This document shows positions 2,502-32,585 of a stretch of DNA of 64,000 bases, one piece after another. The notes beneath the pieces are model-generated. The model had not been told where the DNA came from, searched no databases, and saw only the letters and a list, made by a program, of their open reading frames with translations. How positions within the stretch are numbered: the first letter of the stretch is position 1; each line of letters opens with the position of its first letter. The stretch covers positions 3,802,226 to 3,866,225 of the forward strand of contig NZ_CM001441.1 in the NCBI RefSeq assembly GCF_000244895.1. Direction: 5' to 3'. Made by a program: the position numbers and the translations under genes. The stretch is from Desulfosporosinus youngiae DSM 17734 (lineage in GTDB: Bacteria > Bacillota > Desulfitobacteriia > Desulfitobacteriales > Desulfitobacteriaceae).

Positions 2502-2534
2502 AAAAAGGGCCAGATCATCTCATTGATCTGGCTC
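2502..2534 (-). terminator. Terminator of the molybdenum hydroxylase operon
   Basis: Read on the minus strand, an 11-bp stem (GAGCCAGATCA / TGATCTGGCCC, one G-U pair) has a 6-nt loop and is followed by TTTTTA. It lies 220 bp after the last operon gene. The remainder of 2316-2753 holds no gene I can recognise. Confidence 0.75.
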
Positions 2535-2753: not shown

Positions 2754-5366
2754 TTAAGCCTTCGGCTTGCGATAATAGGTATTCTCCAAAGGATATTTAT
2801 ATCTGAATACCCCATCTTTTTTATAGTAGGCATTTTGACAGGCCGGAGCACCCATAACACACACGATTTCTCCAACCCCCTTAGCTCCGAATGCTATATC
2901 AGGGCCGTTTTTCCCAATCAAATGGACCTCGACAGGCGGCATTTGCTGTGCTTTAAAAAGCCCTAATGTACCAAGTTTTACTTGAGGAATCCCATCTTTT
3001 AAGGGAAAGTCTTCCGTTAAAGCATAGCCCAGCCCCATAGCTACACCACCTTCGACCTGACCGCAGACGGAAAGCGGATTGATTACTCTGCCCACGTCAT
3101 GAGCCGCAATAACTTTTACAACTTTCCCTTCTTTATCTATGATAAAAAGCTGGGTTGCATAGCCATAGGCTACATGGCTTACGGGATTAGGTTTTGGCGA
3201 ACCGATAGGATCGGTTTTAAACTCGAACTCTCCTATATATTCATTTCCTTCCAAATCCCCCAAGGAACTCCCTTTCTCCAAGTCAGCTTTTAATTTCAAG
3301 GATGATTGACGTGCCGCTTCTCCCGCAAAGACAGTTTGACGGGATGCCGTTGTTGTACCCGAGTCAGGAGTATATTTGGTGTCCGGATGTTCTACGACAA
3401 CCTGATTCGTCAGCAAGCCTGTTGTATCGCAAACCACCTGAGTCAAAACGGTCTGTACTCCTTGCCCGATGGCACCTGCTGAGGATCTGACATGTACTTT
3501 GCCATCAATTATTTTTAAATTGCAACGTCCAATATCACGAACACCTACTCCAACCCCTGCATTTTTCATAGCAGATGCGATGCCGACGAAGTAATCCGGA
3601 TCAGCTTCATACTTTTCAAACTCTTCTTTGACCGCTTCCAAGGTATCTACCATTGCCGAACCTTCATCCGCAATCTGTCCATTGGGCAGGGACTGACCGG
3701 GTCTGATGGCATTGCGATAACGGATCTCCCAGCCGGAAATACCGGCTTTTTCCGCAAGCTGATTGATGAGGCATTCGACGACTGCACAGGATTGGGTTAC
3801 TCCAAAGCCGCGAAAGGCACCGGCTGGAGGGTTATTTGTATAATAGGCATTTCCTTCAATATCGACATTTTGATAATTATAAGGACCACCGGCATGGGTA
3901 CAAGCTCTTTGCAGTACCGGGCCGCCCAGAGAAGCATAAGCGCCCGTATCGGAAATAATTCTTGCTTTCATCCCTTGCAATATACCATTTTCATCGCAGC
4001 CAATCTTACAATAAATTTCCATAGCATGGCGTTTGGGATGATAGTTTATACTCTCCTGGCGGCTAAAAGAAACGTTTACCGGTCGTTTTGTCAGATAGGC
4101 ACAAAGGGCAGCCTGATGCTGAACGCTCATATCTTCCTTGCCGCCAAATCCTCCTCCAACAACGGCACTTTGGATTCTGACTTTTTCCAAGGGCAGTCCG
4201 AGATAAGCACTGATTTCATGGAATTCATCATAAATTCCTTGCCCCCCTGTAATCACCTTAACACCATCTCCATCAGGAAGAGCAACCGCAGTTTCCGGTT
4301 CCATAAAGGCGTGTTCTGTTGGCGGCATATGAAAAGTACCTTCGACGACAAATTTAGCATTTTTAAGTGCAGTTTCCGCATCACCCCGTTTTACTTCTTC
4401 ATGGTCAAAAAGGTTATTTTCAGGAATGCGAAACTTCCCAAATTGCATAAATCCTTCACCATGAATTTGATGGGCACCCGGAATTTCAGCTTCTTGAGGC
4501 GTACAAATCGGTTTCAGTGGTTCGTATTGGACTTCTACAGCTTTTACAGCCGCGATCGCCTGTTCTCTCGTTTCGGCAACCACCATGGCCAGTGTATCCC
4601 CACAACACTTTGTTTGTTCTCCCACATCAATCATACCCGGCCAGTCCTGTGCCAAATGACCGATATATCTCTGGCCCGGAATATCTTTGGCCGTATAGAT
4701 GGCAACAACCCCCGGCATGATGAGGGCCTTGCTTATATCAATGGCCAGTATTTTGGCACGAGCAAATTTACTGAAGACATTCTTGCCATAAAGCATTCCG
4801 GGAAAGCTAAAATCATTAGCGTACATGGCCGTTCCCAGGGTTTTGGGAATAGCATCAACACGGCAGGTTTTCTCTCCTATCTTCCCGGTTTGGGCTATTT
4901 CAGGTACCTCCAGGTTTTCCCTTAGTATTTTTGCAGCTAAAAGAATCCCATCTTCAATTTTAGCGTAACCTGTACACCTGCAGATATTGGTGCGGATTGA
5001 TCGTTTTACATCCTCTCTGGTTGGATCAGGATTTTGGTCTATCAAAGATTTCCCGCTGATAACCATGCCCGGAATACAGAAGCCGCATTGTACAGCTCCG
5101 CTGACCGCGAAAGCATAGCCAAATACTTGTCTTTCTCTCTCTGTAAATCCCTCTATTGTTTGGACCTTTTTCCCACCCAATTTAGAAAGCTTTTGAATAC
5201 AAGCACGAGCTGTCTTGCCATCAACAATAACAGTACAAGTTCCGCAAACACCTTCTTGGCAGCCATTCTTTACTGAGGTTATTTTGAGTTTTTCACGCAA
5301 AAAATTCATCAAGCTCATATCGGTTTCCGATTGATAATCTTTTCCATTTACATTTACTATAAACAT
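2754..5366 (-). CDS. Selenium-dependent-type xanthine dehydrogenase / molybdenum hydroxylase with fused 2Fe-2S domain
   Basis: The 870-residue fusion has an N-terminal plant-type [2Fe-2S] domain (Cys36, Cys41, Cys44, Cys56), then a second [2Fe-2S] cluster domain with CGFC and CRCTGY (to about 160). A full molybdopterin-binding hydroxylase domain follows (about 175-870). Moco-pocket motifs are GGGFGGKED, AFRGFG and GAKGVGE, the last carrying the catalytic Glu. The length and domain fusion match the family annotated as selenium-dependent xanthine dehydrogenase; its selenium is a labile ligand, not selenocysteine, so no UGA is needed. No FAD domain is present, so electrons must leave through a partner, perhaps the FAD subunit in the same operon. 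It is the last gene of the operon, 208 bp after the 2Fe-2S subunit gene. Substrate is inferred to be a purine or N-heterocycle. Confidence 0.85.
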   Translation of the reverse strand: MFIVNVNGKDYQSETDMSLMNFLREKLKITSVKNGCQEGVCGTCTVIVDGKTARACIQKLSKLGGKKVQTIEGFTERERQVFGYAFAVSGAVQCGFCIPGMVISGKSLIDQNPDPTREDVKRSIRTNICRCTGYAKIEDGILLAAKILRENLEVPEIAQTGKIGEKTCRVDAIPKTLGTAMYANDFSFPGMLYGKNVFSKFARAKILAIDISKALIMPGVVAIYTAKDIPGQRYIGHLAQDWPGMIDVGEQTKCCGDTLAMVVAETREQAIAAVKAVEVQYEPLKPICTPQEAEIPGAHQIHGEGFMQFGKFRIPENNLFDHEEVKRGDAETALKNAKFVVEGTFHMPPTEHAFMEPETAVALPDGDGVKVITGGQGIYDEFHEISAYLGLPLEKVRIQSAVVGGGFGGKEDMSVQHQAALCAYLTKRPVNVSFSRQESINYHPKRHAMEIYCKIGCDENGILQGMKARIISDTGAYASLGGPVLQRACTHAGGPYNYQNVDIEGNAYYTNNPPAGAFRGFGVTQSCAVVECLINQLAEKAGISGWEIRYRNAIRPGQSLPNGQIADEGSAMVDTLEAVKEEFEKYEADPDYFVGIASAMKNAGVGVGVRDIGRCNLKIIDGKVHVRSSAGAIGQGVQTVLTQVVCDTTGLLTNQVVVEHPDTKYTPDSGTTTASRQTVFAGEAARQSSLKLKADLEKGSSLGDLEGNEYIGEFEFKTDPIGSPKPNPVSHVAYGYATQLFIIDKEGKVVKVIAAHDVGRVINPLSVCGQVEGGVAMGLGYALTEDFPLKDGIPQVKLGTLGLFKAQQMPPVEVHLIGKNGPDIAFGAKGVGEIVCVMGAPACQNAYYKKDGVFRYKYPLENTYYRKPKA

Positions 5367-5463
5367 TTTACTCCCGCTTTCTGACTATCAATTAGCCTGC
5401 AAATGTCTCTTGAGCATGAACATTAACTATTGGTGTTATTTATATATGTACCTGGATTCCTTT

Positions 5464-5508
5464 TAGCCAGTATAGCATCAACCATTACTTGGGGTGCTAT
5501 ACTGGCTA
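5464..5508. repeat. 14-bp perfect inverted repeat between operon genes
   Basis: Arms TAGCCAGTATAGCA and its exact complement are separated by a 17-nt loop, in the 208-bp gap between the 2Fe-2S subunit and the 870-residue hydroxylase. No U tract follows on either strand. It is more likely an RNA stability or processing hairpin, or a protein site, than a terminator. Confidence 0.6.
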
Positions 5509-5573
5509 TTGAAGGGGCGAAGGCATCATTCCTTCTAATAATTGTAGGCTTTTCAATTTCAAGAATGATTATA

Positions 5574-6065
5574 CTAGTCTAATTTACCAAGACGTCTGAG
5601 CATGGTTTTTTCTACCGCAGTAACAACATTTTCATATCCGGTGCATCGGCAAAGATGACCCGAAAGAAGCTTTCTTAATTGATCTCTGTTATATTCCTTA
5701 CCCGTTTCCAGTATTTCAACGGACGTCATAATAAATCCCGGAGTACAGAAGCCGCACTGGATAGCTGTTTCATCGATAAATGACTGCTGAATGTCGGAAA
5801 GCTCCCCATTAGGTCCCAGCAGACTTTCCAGGGTACGAATCTTCTTTCCTTCCGCCCAGACAGCCAGGTAAATACAAGAATTAAAGCATTCCCCATCGAT
5901 AAGCACGTTACAGGCTCCGCACTCCCCAACCTCACAGCCTTTTTTTACTGAGGTGAGGCGGTAATCGTTTCTCAGCATATCCGTCAGGGAAGCGCGGACA
6001 TCGACCATGGTTTCAACGTCCTTGCCGTTGATGTTGCATTTTACCAGTTTATATTGTGCAGACAT
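5574..6065 (-). CDS. Molybdenum hydroxylase, [2Fe-2S] small subunit
   Basis: The 163-residue subunit carries two [2Fe-2S] clusters: a plant-type set Cys44/Cys49/Cys52/Cys64, and a C-terminal CGFC ... CRCTGY set typical of xanthine dehydrogenase-family small subunits (XdhC/CoxS/NdhS). It relays electrons from Moco to the FAD subunit. Length is normal for the family. Its start shares one base with the stop of the FAD-subunit gene, so the two are translationally coupled. Together with its two upstream neighbours it forms a complete three-subunit hydroxylase. Confidence 0.9.
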   Translation of the reverse strand: MSAQYKLVKCNINGKDVETMVDVRASLTDMLRNDYRLTSVKKGCEVGECGACNVLIDGECFNSCIYLAVWAEGKKIRTLESLLGPNGELSDIQQSFIDETAIQCGFCTPGFIMTSVEILETGKEYNRDQLRKLLSGHLCRCTGYENVVTAVEKTMLRRLGKLD

Positions 6066-6946
6066 TAAATCTCACCTCCGGACAATCTGATGGCTTCGAT
6101 TAAACAGCGCTCTGCCAGTTCCACGGCAATGTGCTGACGGAATGCTTTGGAAGCACGCCAGCTGTCACGGGGATTGATATCCTCAAGCACGCCGGCAGCA
6201 AAGGCCTTCACTGTCTCACTGCAGACAGGCTGACCATTGGCTTTAACTTCCGCCGCAGGACAGCGCATGGGAACAGGACCGGCAACGCCATAAGCTATCC
6301 GGGCCTTGATGATGGTTTTTTTGTCCTCTGAAAGCTTAACATTGACTGAACAGCCTGTCGTTGCAATATCCATGGCATTTCTCATGGCATACTTGATATA
6401 GTGCCCTTTATAGCCTACGTAGCTTTCCTTCGGAATGATAATAGCCGTCTGGATTTCTCCCGCCCTGATATCTACAACACCTGCTTTAATGTAGAATTCC
6501 TTGATTGGAAGTCTTCTGACTCCTTCAGGGCCTGTGAGCTCGATAATTGCCTCCCAGGCATGCAGGGTGGAAGCGGAGTCTGCCGAGGTAACACCATTGC
6601 AGGTATTGCCGCCTATGGTGCCGATGTTCCGCACCTGAGGACCTCCGATCATATCGACAGCTTCACCAAGAACATTGATGTGTTTTTGAATGATTTCATG
6701 TTTGGTAATGTGGGAAAAGCTGGTTAAGGAGCCGATTCTGATGGCTTCATTCTCGTCAAGCCTGATTCCTCTCATTTCGTCAATCATATAGATACTGATT
6801 AATTCTTTGCCGGCACGTTTCCCTTCACGCATCTGGACCAAAACGTCACTGCCCCCTGCAATAATATCCGCTTCGGGGTGCGCAAGTCTTAATTCAACAG
6901 CTTCCCGGATGCTGCCGGCTTCATATAATGCTTTAATGTCGTACAT
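6065..6946 (-). CDS. Molybdenum hydroxylase, FAD-binding subunit
   Basis: The 293-residue protein belongs to the CoxM/XdhB FAD-binding family. The pyrophosphate-binding loop AGGSDVLVQ is near residue 33 and the second FAD motif IGGPQVRNIGTIGGN near 102-117. A C-terminal CO-dehydrogenase-flavoprotein-like domain occupies about 175-290. It receives electrons from the [2Fe-2S] subunit and passes them to NAD or another acceptor. It lies 65 bp downstream of the Moco subunit, in the same riboswitch-led operon. Confidence 0.9.
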   Translation of the reverse strand: MYDIKALYEAGSIREAVELRLAHPEADIIAGGSDVLVQMREGKRAGKELISIYMIDEMRGIRLDENEAIRIGSLTSFSHITKHEIIQKHINVLGEAVDMIGGPQVRNIGTIGGNTCNGVTSADSASTLHAWEAIIELTGPEGVRRLPIKEFYIKAGVVDIRAGEIQTAIIIPKESYVGYKGHYIKYAMRNAMDIATTGCSVNVKLSEDKKTIIKARIAYGVAGPVPMRCPAAEVKANGQPVCSETVKAFAAGVLEDINPRDSWRASKAFRQHIAVELAERCLIEAIRLSGGEI

Positions 6947-7011
6947 AATAACTCCTTTCAGGCCCGGGGTTTCCGGGCATTTCTGTGCACCATTGTCCTG
7001 TCAATTCGCTG

Positions 7012-9294
7012 TTAAATCAGTCCTTCTTCGCTAAAACGTTCAAAGAGAACATGAGGTGTCATGGGTGCTTTAAACATGCCGACACCTGTTGCATTTAAAA
7101 TAGCATTTCTAATGGCGGGGGCCACCGGACATACCGGAGGCTCGCCCAGAGCCTTTGTGCCAAAGGCGCTGGTAGGTTCATAATTCTCAACGAACTGTGC
7201 TGCAAGATCAGGGTGATCCATGGTTGTCGGCAGCTTATAGTCGAGAAGATTGTCATTGAGTGTCCGGCCTGACTTGGGATCGTACAGAAGCTGTTCCGAC
7301 AAAGCGTAGCCGATGCCCATACTCATCCCGCCATGAACTTGTGCTTCAGCAAGATCAGGGTTAATGAGCTGTCCGCAATCATGAACATTGATAATATCAA
7401 GTATCTTCACTTTGCATAATTTTATATCAACCTCCACATCCACAAAGCAGCAGCCAAAAGAGTAGGCATTGGACTTAATCTGGTAAGTGCTCTCTGCTGT
7501 CATATGCTGTGAATGGGTCAGACTATAAAGAGCTTCACAGGCCAGGTCTGCAATTGACATGAGAATTCTGCCATCCGTGGTGCGGACAATATGGTTGTCT
7601 GCTATTTCCAGGTTGAAGACAGGCATTCTTGTCAATTCGTGAGCATACTCGAGTATTTTGGCCTTTAGTATTTCAGCGGTCTGTCTGATTGCAAAACCCC
7701 CGACGTAGGTTTGCCTGGAGGCATATGAACCTGTACCAAAGGGTGTAACATCCGTGTCCTGACAGGATACAACATTAATTTTATCCATGGAGTAGCCTAA
7801 AATGTCTGCTGCCATCTGGGCGAAAACAGTATCGGCACCCTGACCTATTTCAGTTTCGCCTAACTGTATCTGGACTGAACCATCCTGATTAAGAACCATA
7901 CGACAGGAAGAGGATTCAAGACTGATTGGCCATACTGCTGTGTTATACCAAAAAACTGCACAGCCTATACCACGGCGGGTATCTCCTGTCTGATGCTTGT
8001 ATTCCTCGTATTTTCTATCATAGTCAATAGCCGCTTTTCCTTTTTCTATACATTGTCTAAAGCTGTCAAAATAGTTCTCATTTTTGGAGAATCCATCAAC
8101 ATAGCCCACGGGCATGAGATGCTTCAGCCTGTACTCCAGGGGATGGGCGCCGATTTTGCGTGCTATATCATCAATCTGGCTCTCCACAGGGAACATTGCC
8201 TGAGGGATGCCATATCCTCTCATGGCACCTGCAACAGTGCGGTTTGTGAATACGGTATAAGCATCGGCTTCAACATTGGGGCAGGGGTATAACTGGGGGA
8301 AGGCCCCCATGCCTTTGGCTGCAATACCATGTCCATGAGAAGCATAGGCACCCTGATTGGAGAAAGCTTCCAGCTTTCTGGCCACAATGGTTCCGTCAGG
8401 ACGTACCCAGGTAACTACGTGACTTCTGATGGCATGACGGACACGGTTGTTAGTAAAGGTTTCTTCTCTTGCCACATCAATCTTGACAAGTCTTCCTCCA
8501 ACCTGAGTTGAAAGGTAGGCGCACAAGGGTTCATATAGAGCATCCTGCTTGTTGCCGAAGCCACCGCCGATATAGGGCTTGACTACCCTGACCTTTCCCC
8601 AGGAAATACCAAGGGCCTGGCCAACAACCCGGCGGACGATGTGGGGAATCTGGGTTGAGGAAACAATATTAATCCTGCCATTTTCTTCATAAGCATAGCA
8701 GATATGATTCTCGATATGACAGTGCTGAACGGTAGGAGTATCGTACCAGTCATCAAACTTTATCAGTCCGGGTTCTTTAATGGCCTCCTGATAGTTGCCG
8801 ATTCTTAGATTGGTGTGGCCAAGAATGTTGTTAGGATAGTTTTCATGAAGCTGGGGAGCACCCTCCTTCATGGCCTCCTGAACATCGAGCACAATAGGGT
8901 ATTCCTCATAATCAACTTTAACCTTTCTGACTGCCTGCGCAGCAGCAATATCATTCTCAGCTATTACTGCTGCAACCTCTTCGCCATAGAATCTGACTCT
9001 GTCTGTCAGAAGAAGACGGTCAGCTACGTCCTGATGATGAGGATCGGTTGACCAGGGGTGTCCCGCCGTAGGGAAGTAATATTTAGGAACATCAAAGCAG
9101 GTGACGATTTTAACAACACCTTCGACTTTTTCCGCTTCAGAGATGTCAATTGATTTGACAAGACCATTAGCGATGGTGGAATGAACAAGCTTAACTACAA
9201 GTGCCTGGCTGTCACACAGGTCATCGGTATACTTGGTTCGTCCTGTTGCCTTGTCGAAAGCATCGACACGAGGAATACTTTTACCAATATTCAT
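7012..9294 (-). CDS. Molybdenum hydroxylase, molybdopterin-binding large subunit (xanthine dehydrogenase type)
   Basis: The 760-residue catalytic subunit has an aldehyde oxidase/xanthine dehydrogenase N-terminal domain (about 10-115) followed by the Moco domain. Motifs visible are GGGFGNKQD, AMRGYGIPQ, EIGQGADTV, and GTKALGEPPV with the catalytic Glu near residue 730. It is the first gene of the operon and lies behind the purine-fold riboswitch. The start ATG follows a GGAGG site. With the FAD and [2Fe-2S] subunits it forms a classical heterotrimer. Xanthine, hypoxanthine or another purine as substrate is inferred from the family plus the riboswitch; nicotinate-type substrates cannot be excluded by sequence alone. 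Confidence 0.88.
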   Translation of the reverse strand: MNIGKSIPRVDAFDKATGRTKYTDDLCDSQALVVKLVHSTIANGLVKSIDISEAEKVEGVVKIVTCFDVPKYYFPTAGHPWSTDPHHQDVADRLLLTDRVRFYGEEVAAVIAENDIAAAQAVRKVKVDYEEYPIVLDVQEAMKEGAPQLHENYPNNILGHTNLRIGNYQEAIKEPGLIKFDDWYDTPTVQHCHIENHICYAYEENGRINIVSSTQIPHIVRRVVGQALGISWGKVRVVKPYIGGGFGNKQDALYEPLCAYLSTQVGGRLVKIDVAREETFTNNRVRHAIRSHVVTWVRPDGTIVARKLEAFSNQGAYASHGHGIAAKGMGAFPQLYPCPNVEADAYTVFTNRTVAGAMRGYGIPQAMFPVESQIDDIARKIGAHPLEYRLKHLMPVGYVDGFSKNENYFDSFRQCIEKGKAAIDYDRKYEEYKHQTGDTRRGIGCAVFWYNTAVWPISLESSSCRMVLNQDGSVQIQLGETEIGQGADTVFAQMAADILGYSMDKINVVSCQDTDVTPFGTGSYASRQTYVGGFAIRQTAEILKAKILEYAHELTRMPVFNLEIADNHIVRTTDGRILMSIADLACEALYSLTHSQHMTAESTYQIKSNAYSFGCCFVDVEVDIKLCKVKILDIINVHDCGQLINPDLAEAQVHGGMSMGIGYALSEQLLYDPKSGRTLNDNLLDYKLPTTMDHPDLAAQFVENYEPTSAFGTKALGEPPVCPVAPAIRNAILNATGVGMFKAPMTPHVLFERFSEEGLI

Positions 9295-9522
9295 TACATC
9301 TACCTCCTAATTCCGCACGAGCGAAGAAAATCATAACTTAACATCATTTCGTTGTGAATCATTTCTCAAATCGTTACTTCTGCCTTTACTTGGTTTCTTT
9401 TTCCGCTCCATATTAAATTAAAGGGAAACTCATTTTTCACAGGATGTTAATTTCTTCTAATTGCATGTGTTTATCCTCATCTGCCTGATTAAATTCCTGT
9501 GGATGATCTTAAAAACAAAAAA

Positions 9523-9665
9523 CCCAGGCACACGAATAACAAGTCAGACACACGCGTTTAGGTTTAATAAACGGCAATCTAAATAAGTTATTCATGTAGC
9601 CTGGGCAATTTATGGTTGCCTGGTCGAAACGCTCACACCATATTAATGAGCTTATACAAGAATAA
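9523..9665 (-). promoter_or_regulatory. Purine-fold riboswitch with overlapping terminator (predicted ON switch)
   Basis: Minus strand, reading down from 9665. P1 5' arm TTATTCTTGT (9665-9656) pairs with ACATGAATAA (9597-9588), one mismatch. J1/2 is ATAA. P2 is GCTCA/TGAGC with L2 AATATGG. J2/3 is GTTTCGACC. P3 is GGCAA/TTGCC with L3 CCATAAA. The GG/CC loop-loop contacts of the purine family are kept, as is C74 (9599), which favours guanine-like ligands. Two pocket-region bases differ from consensus: U51 is G (9625) and A73 is G (9600). The 3' half (9605-9587) can instead pair with 9540-9523 into a long stem followed by TTTTTTGTTTTT, a terminator. Ligand binding should therefore block termination and switch the hydroxylase operon on. 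Confidence 0.85.
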
Positions 9666-9713: not shown

Positions 9714-9741
9714 ATTATACATTTCCTTAGTTTTAAGTCAA
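9714..9741 (-). promoter_or_regulatory. SigA-type promoter of the riboswitch/hydroxylase operon
   Basis: On the minus strand TTGACT (9741-9736), a 16-bp spacer and TATAAT (9719-9714) lie about 50 bp upstream of the aptamer P1 stem. This fits a transcript starting near 9707 that carries the whole riboswitch. Confidence 0.7.
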
Positions 9742-31356: not shown

Positions 31357-32169
31357 TCAGCATAATTCCAGTATCTTTTCCAGCAAAGCAATTAATTCTT
31401 GGGAATACTTTTCTTCGTCATTTCTTAGCATCTCTATGGCAGTCTCCATTTCTTGCGGTTGCTTATAAGGTCGGCCGGAGGTAATGGCATCAACGGCATC
31501 GGCAATCATTACGATTTTGGCGTTGCGGCAGATTTCATCTCCCTTGAGTCCTTTGGGATATCCACTTCCGTCCAACCGCTCGTGATGCTGCAAAACCATA
31601 TCCGTGCATTCCTTGGGAAGATCAAACGGTTCCAGAGAACACATGCCCAACTCACAATGCTGCCAAATATAGACCTTTTCCACTTTGTTTAGAGGCCCGG
31701 GTTTTTGAATAATGTGTTTTGGGACCAACAGCTTGCCTACATCATGGAGAAGAGCACCCAATCCTATATTCCAAAGTTCTTTATCATTGTATTTTAGCTC
31801 CACGGCCATCATCAACGAAATAATGGCAACATCAATGGAATGTGTATATAACCAATCCACATAATTACTCAAGGCGTTGACGTAGATCCACCAAGGATTT
31901 GTTTTAGACTCAAAGATGATAGTGCTTAATATCTTGTTCGGATATTCCAGACCGCGATTGTTACGGATCTTCTTTCTTCCTCCGAATGCCTGGATAATCG
32001 AAGACGATGTCGTCTTTTGTTTGGCATCGAAGCCGATCAGCCCTTCTGCTTTAAAGCTGCCAAGCTTTAACAGCTTTTTGGCAACTTCACGCGTTATTTT
32101 ATGACCTTTGCTCAGCAGCAATACCCCATTCTTGTCATAGATATCTTCTTTTGATAAAAAGCCAGACAT
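31357..32169 (-). CDS. HD-GYP domain protein (predicted c-di-GMP phosphodiesterase)
   Basis: The 270-residue protein has an N-terminal segment of about 100 residues followed by an HD-GYP domain. The metal-binding HD pair is in LLHDVGKLLVP (near 146), and the GYP region is HHERLDGSGYPKGLKGDEI (near 195-213). Members hydrolyse c-di-GMP to GMP or pGpG. No receiver or membrane segment is present, so the sensor input is unclear. It is monocistronic. The nearby GGDEF fragment at 12.2 kb suggests c-di-GMP signalling exists in this organism. Confidence 0.87.
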   Translation of the reverse strand: MSGFLSKEDIYDKNGVLLLSKGHKITREVAKKLLKLGSFKAEGLIGFDAKQKTTSSSIIQAFGGRKKIRNNRGLEYPNKILSTIIFESKTNPWWIYVNALSNYVDWLYTHSIDVAIISLMMAVELKYNDKELWNIGLGALLHDVGKLLVPKHIIQKPGPLNKVEKVYIWQHCELGMCSLEPFDLPKECTDMVLQHHERLDGSGYPKGLKGDEICRNAKIVMIADAVDAITSGRPYKQPQEMETAIEMLRNDEEKYSQELIALLEKILELC

Positions 32170-32585
32170 TTCATTAACCCCTTTCTATGTTTACTCCCAA
32201 CTTCCAATAGCTTGTTCTCTAAAAAGTCCGATAGATAAACAGTTGGCTCATGCTTCACTGGGATAAAACGTTCCTTTCCTAAAGTGTCAATGAAAACAAA
32301 AAAAGTAAGCAGCATAAAAGCTGCCTACTTTAAGTTTATGGTTTAAGCTACAAGTAGTCCCTTAATTTAAGTTTAATTCCTTAATCCATATCTTTCTCTT
32401 GGCAACCCAACGATCATGGCAATTTCTTGCTTTAGACTTGCGGCTTTGCGTCTCCACCTTTCGATGGATTTGCCTTTATCAATTTGTAAGTTCTTGTACA
32501 TTTCCTATTCAACGGCACATTTAGTCGTCTCTTTTCAACCTTTTAGCCCGGAATTACAGAGAGTCTTTTCCTTAAGTATGGAAAT

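Follow-up and report, generated by a model that had tools for sequence, protein, structure and literature searches.

How xanthine dehydrogenase is controlled in Desulfosporosinus, a genus of sulfate reducers, and what the altered purine-type riboswitch in front of its genes might sense, are the questions raised by a leader in the window, the whole 64,000-nt stretch of DNA analyzed here. The first-pass annotation had described a complete purine-family aptamer (P1-P2-P3, with C74 conserved), with kissing bases in L2 and L3 and with G at both position 51 and position 73, located before a xanthine dehydrogenase-type operon. In our Rfam scan, the Purine family (RF00167; gathering score 37) matched 9679-9577(-) across the full model (1-102; E 9.8e-11), and was the best of its clan at the aptamer, with one lower-scoring clan match omitted. 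By inspection, L2 offers GG and L3 offers CC, and C74 and both G residues could be read directly on the minus strand, which bears out that description. With P3 taken as GGCAA/UUGCC, J2-3 has 10 nt compared to 8 in the RF00167 consensus, and J3-1 has 5 nt compared to 2 (Table 1).

The location before a xanthine dehydrogenase-type operon was likewise borne out, as xdhA, xdhB, and xdhC each score above the curated NCBIfam cut-off. A gene for a selenium-dependent xanthine dehydrogenase follows xdhC and is probably the last gene of the operon, in which case it would be co-transcribed; a similar gene after xdhC, in the same gene order, was read by eye in a second genome (G014). The hairpin 3' of this gene is weak evidence for the operon end, since the terminator-like sites in its region (7) are no more numerous than in shuffles (7.5). 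Divergently oriented neighbors upstream of the aptamer and xdhA encode a MarR-family regulator and an MFS transporter. Both XdhABC and the selenium-dependent enzyme, which are different kinds of xanthine dehydrogenase, are encoded in the cluster 2754-9294(-), and they may be controlled together by a single riboswitch.

Table 1. Features of the leader and its downstream genes, in window coordinates, listed in the direction of transcription.
Feature	Position	Strand	Basis or remark
Promoter-like site, TTGACT-16-TATAAT	9714..9741	-	11/12 consensus bases; consensus match only
Xanthine-II-type aptamer (78 nt) with a P1/P2/P3 three-way junction	9588..9665	-	RF00167 71.8 bits; R2 97.0 bits, E 1.4e-24
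P1	9665-9655 with 9598-9588	-	One U.U mismatch, 9659/9594; by inspection
J1-2	9654-9652	-	UAA; by inspection
P2	9651-9646 with 9636-9631	-	By inspection
L2 GG	9639-9638	-	Kissing bases; by inspection
J2-3 GUUUCGACCA, G51 = 9625	9621..9630	-	10 nt; sequence
P3	9620-9616 with 9608-9604	-	GGCAA/UUGCC; by inspection
L3 CC	9615-9614	-	Kissing bases; by inspection
J3-1 CAGGC; G72 9601, G73 9600, C74 9599	9599..9603	-	5 nt
Intrinsic terminator stem; 5' arm = P3 3' strand, J3-1, P1 3' strand of aptamer	9522..9606	-	Fold of 9608-9510
U-tract UUUUUUGUUUUU	9511..9522	-	Sequence; first U folded into terminator stem
xdhA, xanthine dehydrogenase molybdenum subunit, 760 aa	7012..9294	-	NF043082 1229.7 bits, cut-off 780
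xdhB, FAD subunit, 293 aa	6065..6946	-	NF043083 422.2 bits, cut-off 310
xdhC, iron-sulfur subunit, 163 aa	5574..6065	-	NF043084 251.1 bits, cut-off 217
Selenium-dependent xanthine dehydrogenase, 870 aa	2754..5366	-	TIGR03311 1258.2 bits, cut-off 830.45
Terminator-like hairpin 3' of last xanthine dehydrogenase gene, possible operon end	2509..2532	-	Weak

Next to its pocket changes, the RNA had been predicted to use its 3' half as the 5' arm of a strong terminator. We found this arrangement in the fold of 9608-9510 (-40.6 kcal/mol), in which the stem takes up the P3 3' strand from 9606. The boundary of the element, previously set at 9523, shifts, since the folded stem reaches one base further and the U-tract continues beyond it. 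A simple terminator scan confined to perfect stems with loops of 3-8 bases did not report the leader terminator. Promoter-like sites such as the one upstream of the aptamer number 5 in an 801-base region, compared to a shuffle mean of 2.1.

The free fold of the leader (9665-9510) has an energy of -51.3 kcal/mol, compared to -30.7 kcal/mol with the aptamer enforced. With the terminator form favored over the aptamer form by about 20 kcal/mol, switching would need to be under kinetic control. Folds of the growing chain, sampled at increasing lengths from 9664, gave the three-stem aptamer as the best structure at 78, 86, 110, 118, and 126 nt, while P1 was absent from the best fold at 70, 94, and 102 nt; the P1 3' strand was captured at 134 nt and the terminator was complete at 142 and 150 nt. 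Together, the strands shared between aptamer and terminator and the growing-chain folds suggest that a ligand holding the aptamer should favor read-through, making this an ON switch.

It had further been suggested that, in this RNA with G51 and G73, pairing with C53 could reshape the pocket. We surveyed 398 genomes of the phylum with model R1 and read the best 90 matches of a longer list. G51 occurs in 6 of these, from 5 genomes, all with G73; another 42 combine U51 with G73, 39 have U51 and A73 (two of them with U74), and 3 have other combinations. These shares do not represent population frequencies, as the selecting model R1 itself has G73. Since 42 U51 RNAs carry G73, we rejected the idea that it is specific to G51 RNAs, and a possible C53-G73 pair, being shared with U51 relatives, cannot alone set the ligand. 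U51 with G73 is seen, for example, in L044, L046, L048, and similar rows of alignment A5, some with a short J3-1 (CGGC).

The element is sparsely distributed among close relatives. BLAST (E up to 0.001) found matches in 3 of 45 genomes of the family, and R1 recovered the same three genomes with one match each of at least 104.9 bits, while all other matches listed score at most 46.6 bits; in the genus group, R1 places the element in 3 of 29 genomes. R1 also matches 822330-822406 of a genus-group genome (G018), the site at which a D. orientis DSM 765 purine riboswitch has been reported (822336-822401; PMC4521916); the word 'xanthine' is absent from the accessible part of that paper.

To sample more widely, genome contigs were scanned with a sequence pattern, yielding 52 loci, 44 of which score with R1. 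The other eight (L073, L085, L092, L101, L102, L104, L107, and L117), five of them near-identical stretches from Dyadobacter, received no R1 score at E up to 1, and we discarded them as chance matches. The 44 loci together with L012, L013, L047, and L049 form alignment A4 (48 rows, 37 distinct). Its hosts are chiefly Paenibacillus, along with Cohnella, a 'Bacillus', Lacrimispora, other clostridial records, uncultured records, and Desulfosporosinus. All 48 rows have the J2-3 sequence GUYUCGACCA, 44 of them by force of the search pattern, which we had derived from the window sequence and the matches closest to it. As close relatives are present among the rows, counts from A4 and from the best 90 matches are of sequences rather than independent events.

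Covariation of the stems in homologous loci, proposed earlier as a check, was found among the 37 distinct sequences. Eight pairs changed on both sides, a number attained in 1 of 500 shuffles (mean 5.4), with 51 two-sided changed cells compared to 23.4 in shuffles (0 of 500), and 93.1% of stem cells were paired, compared to 32.5-50.9% when the stems were slid. The shared terminator strand is also common. In 41 of 47 leaders tested (39 of 45 distinct leaders), the P3/J3-1 strand, which includes the pocket-forming J3-1, doubles as a terminator arm, with at least 7 contiguous pairs to the bases just before the T-run; L080 was left out because it has too little sequence. In each of the 41 rows, 0 or 1 of 100 shuffles did as well, although this control is weak, as the shuffles keep base counts only and also break T-runs. 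Leaders below this length were L113 (6 pairs), L118, L084, L095, and L114 (5 pairs each), and L093, which has only a chance stem elsewhere. Among 13 rows with U for C in J3-1, the terminator arm has A in four (L086, L091, L075, and L049) and G, forming a wobble pair, in nine (L088, L108, L110, L112, L116, L119, L121, L087, and L081).

The genes downstream of these RNAs were identified by tblastn with five representatives: 16 precede a Rieske dioxygenase, 13 an allantoinase, 12 a xanthine dehydrogenase small subunit, 3 xdhA, and 1 a PnrA-like substrate-binding (transporter) protein. Together these account for 45 of the 48 rows; L080, L076, and L049 gave no tblastn match in their scant downstream sequence (7, 107, and 516 bases, respectively).

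The window RNA and its relatives correspond to a published class. According to the portions of the founding report available to us, xanthine-II riboswitches are distinguished by U51G, a two-nucleotide insertion in J2-3, and an insertion in J3-1 (Hamal Dhakal et al. 2022, PMC9295807); they precede dioxygenase, allantoinase, and xanthine dehydrogenase genes, with ON architecture in some examples. Their 92 allB RNA from Paenibacillus sp. DMB5 binds xanthine weakly (KD about 36.5 uM), and of the purines tried on the tested member, xanthine alone altered its structure. A xanthine-II crystal structure, 9IWF (Xu et al. 2025), is cited in PMC12776560. In A4, the DMB5 locus before an allantoinase gene (L094) has J1-2 and J2-3 identical to those of the window and a J3-1 differing by one C, and is very likely the 92 allB RNA; a second DMB5 locus (L096) precedes a dioxygenase.

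We built model R2 from 33 relatives, a DMB5 locus included and no Desulfosporosinus sequence among them. It scored the window aptamer at 97.0 bits and the copies in two other genomes at 97.5 (G014) and 102.7 (G017), compared to 34.9-40.4 bits for the four guanine-type riboswitches of the source genome. As the features match the xanthine-II description in the available text (PMC9295807) and R2 scores the aptamer highly, we rejected the idea of a new riboswitch class. The best U51 RNA among those scored, the guanine-II-like L043, reached 90.2 bits, so R2 separates xanthine-II from guanine-II poorly, and it is G51 together with the two extra J2-3 nucleotides that supports the assignment. With high confidence, we assign this RNA, located in the leader of the Desulfosporosinus xanthine dehydrogenase operon, to the xanthine-II riboswitches, as a transcriptional ON switch with xanthine as the presumed ligand. 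The earlier proposal of an altered purine riboswitch with ON wiring and xanthine-type sensing is consistent with this class as published, while its alternative ligand, an oxidized or modified purine, appears less likely because the tested member responded to xanthine only, among the purines tried (PMC9295807, as far as its available text goes).

Given the R2 score of L043, the RNA could instead be a guanine-II-like ON riboswitch that senses guanine, with xanthine dehydrogenase induced by excess guanine. Guanine-II RNAs have most of the changes seen in xanthine-II, and those of Paenibacillus are predicted to be ON switches, but the window aptamer combines G51 with two extra J2-3 nucleotides where guanine-II has U51 and one, and guanine-II RNAs are most commonly found upstream of phosphoribosyltransferase genes (PMC9295807, in the text available). 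We consider a guanine sensor very improbable.

Within the preferred xanthine-II reading, the length of J3-1 sets Desulfosporosinus apart. J3-1 is CAGGC in the window and L012, and one nucleotide longer in the other 46 of 48 A4 rows (CCAGGC in 33, CUAGGC in 13). Sequencing error is unlikely, since GCCCAGGCTA also stands in two relics of the element (L010 and L011). A selectivity shifted by this shortening in a xanthine-II-derived RNA, for example toward uric acid or another oxidized purine, would draw on the same agreement among the window, L012, and the relics, but the other junction bases of the window are unchanged relative to the class, and a J3-1 of the usual six nucleotides occurs in the third intact Desulfosporosinus copy (L089/L014), which precedes an xdhA that is 96.6% identical over 535 compared residues. 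We rate this slightly below even the guanine sensor. A less radical idea, that RNAs with five-nucleotide J3-1 form a functional xanthine-II sub-type in which the lost nucleotide retunes affinity, selectivity, or terminator-arm balance, has somewhat better prospects but is still doubtful; all three intact Desulfosporosinus copies, the one with the longer J3-1 included, carry three G's in the terminator arm. Since CAGGC and CCAGGC both occur within the genus, the role of the J3-1 insertion could be tested simply on natural variants.

Decayed relics of the same element occur in Desulfosporosinus, yet we give almost no credence to the window RNA being a decayed or non-functional remnant, as it is complete with promoter-like site, terminator, and intact xdhABC, and copies 95-96% identical precede xdhA in two other genomes.

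One relic lies 24 kb beyond the window (G000:C1:3890665-3890748; L010, L131). It was suspected to be a second sensor with the same terminator, an idea that we rejected: Rfam gives no hit there at gathering scores, and similarity to the operon is confined to the terminator region and a short xdhA-start piece, kept in L131, the 5' part of the aptamer being lost. The second, L011 (G017:C70:24466-24564), has likewise lost the 5' part of the aptamer, and what it retains is a vestige of P3 along with the terminator region.

Other riboswitches were met along the way. The source genome (G000) has six RF00167 matches: four of the guanine type (U51, A73, C74), the element described here, and a variant, L006 (G000:C1:1306877-1306976(+)). 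Like L019 and L024, which are similar, L006 is a U51 variant in which C54-G72 is apparently swapped to G54-C72 and A73 is changed. It lies upstream of an XdhA C-terminal fragment and, also downstream, a gene that we take to encode a purine permease, which had no NCBIfam match at E 1e-10. In another genome, L138/L129 (G167:C60:3010-3089(-)) is a purine-fold aptamer with J2-3 GUGCAGUACCA and J3-1 CCAGGC, preceding FtcD-like, cyclase-like, and allantoinase-like genes. It is the sole J2-3 core to depart in this way among the best 90 matches read, one of four genomes from its class has the pattern, and the RNA may represent an additional variant that recognizes a different ligand. The window itself contains a c-di-GMP-I riboswitch at 32398-32484(-) (RF01051, 86.7 bits), before a gene for an HD-domain protein at 31357-32169(-).

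The aptamer with G51 and its junction changes, the overlapping terminator, and the downstream genes are present at this locus, and the same layout recurs in relatives. On this basis, we propose that transcription starts just downstream of 9714, so that the aptamer would be made first. If xanthine, the likely ligand, were bound, the strands of P1, P3, and J3-1 would be kept in the aptamer, and a held aptamer would permit read-through into xdhABC and the selenium-dependent xanthine dehydrogenase gene. Without ligand, 9540-9522 would capture the P3 3' strand, J3-1, and the P1 3' strand, completing the terminator, and transcription would stop at the U-tract. Binding would thus shift termination, with the choice made during transcription. 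Xanthine most likely induces the xanthine dehydrogenase operon through the riboswitch.

Among known systems, xanthine-I (NMT1) has xanthine as its class ligand and similar genes but an unrelated fold (PMC9295807, text available in part), and the Rfam scan at gathering scores found no match to it in the 64,000-nt window. Guanine-I riboswitches (the RF00167 consensus and the four copies in the source genome) have the same scaffold, kissing loops, and C74; unlike the window aptamer, they have U51, A73, an 8-nt J2-3, and a 2-nt J3-1. Guanine-II, as described in PMC9295807, has the scaffold, most junction changes, and the predicted ON direction in common with the window aptamer, but keeps U51, has one extra J2-3 nucleotide, and has phosphoribosyltransferase genes as its commonest neighbors. 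With xanthine-II, the window locus has in common the three-way junction with kissing loops, G51, two extra J2-3 nucleotides, an enlarged J3-1, an overlapping terminator with ON architecture, and xanthine dehydrogenase genes, here xdhABC. It differs in its Desulfosporosinus host and in its J3-1, which lacks one nucleotide relative to 46 of the 48 A4 rows, the comparison being with the 6 nt of the aligned relatives rather than with a published xanthine-II length. The hosts given in the available text of PMC9295807 for its three variant groups together are Paenibacillus, Propionispira, and unnamed Clostridium species, and a word search of its main text finds neither Desulfosporosinus nor Lacrimispora. 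Our analysis extends this rare, recently described class to Desulfosporosinus, a further host genus, and adds decayed relics and a shorter J3-1 to what is known of it.
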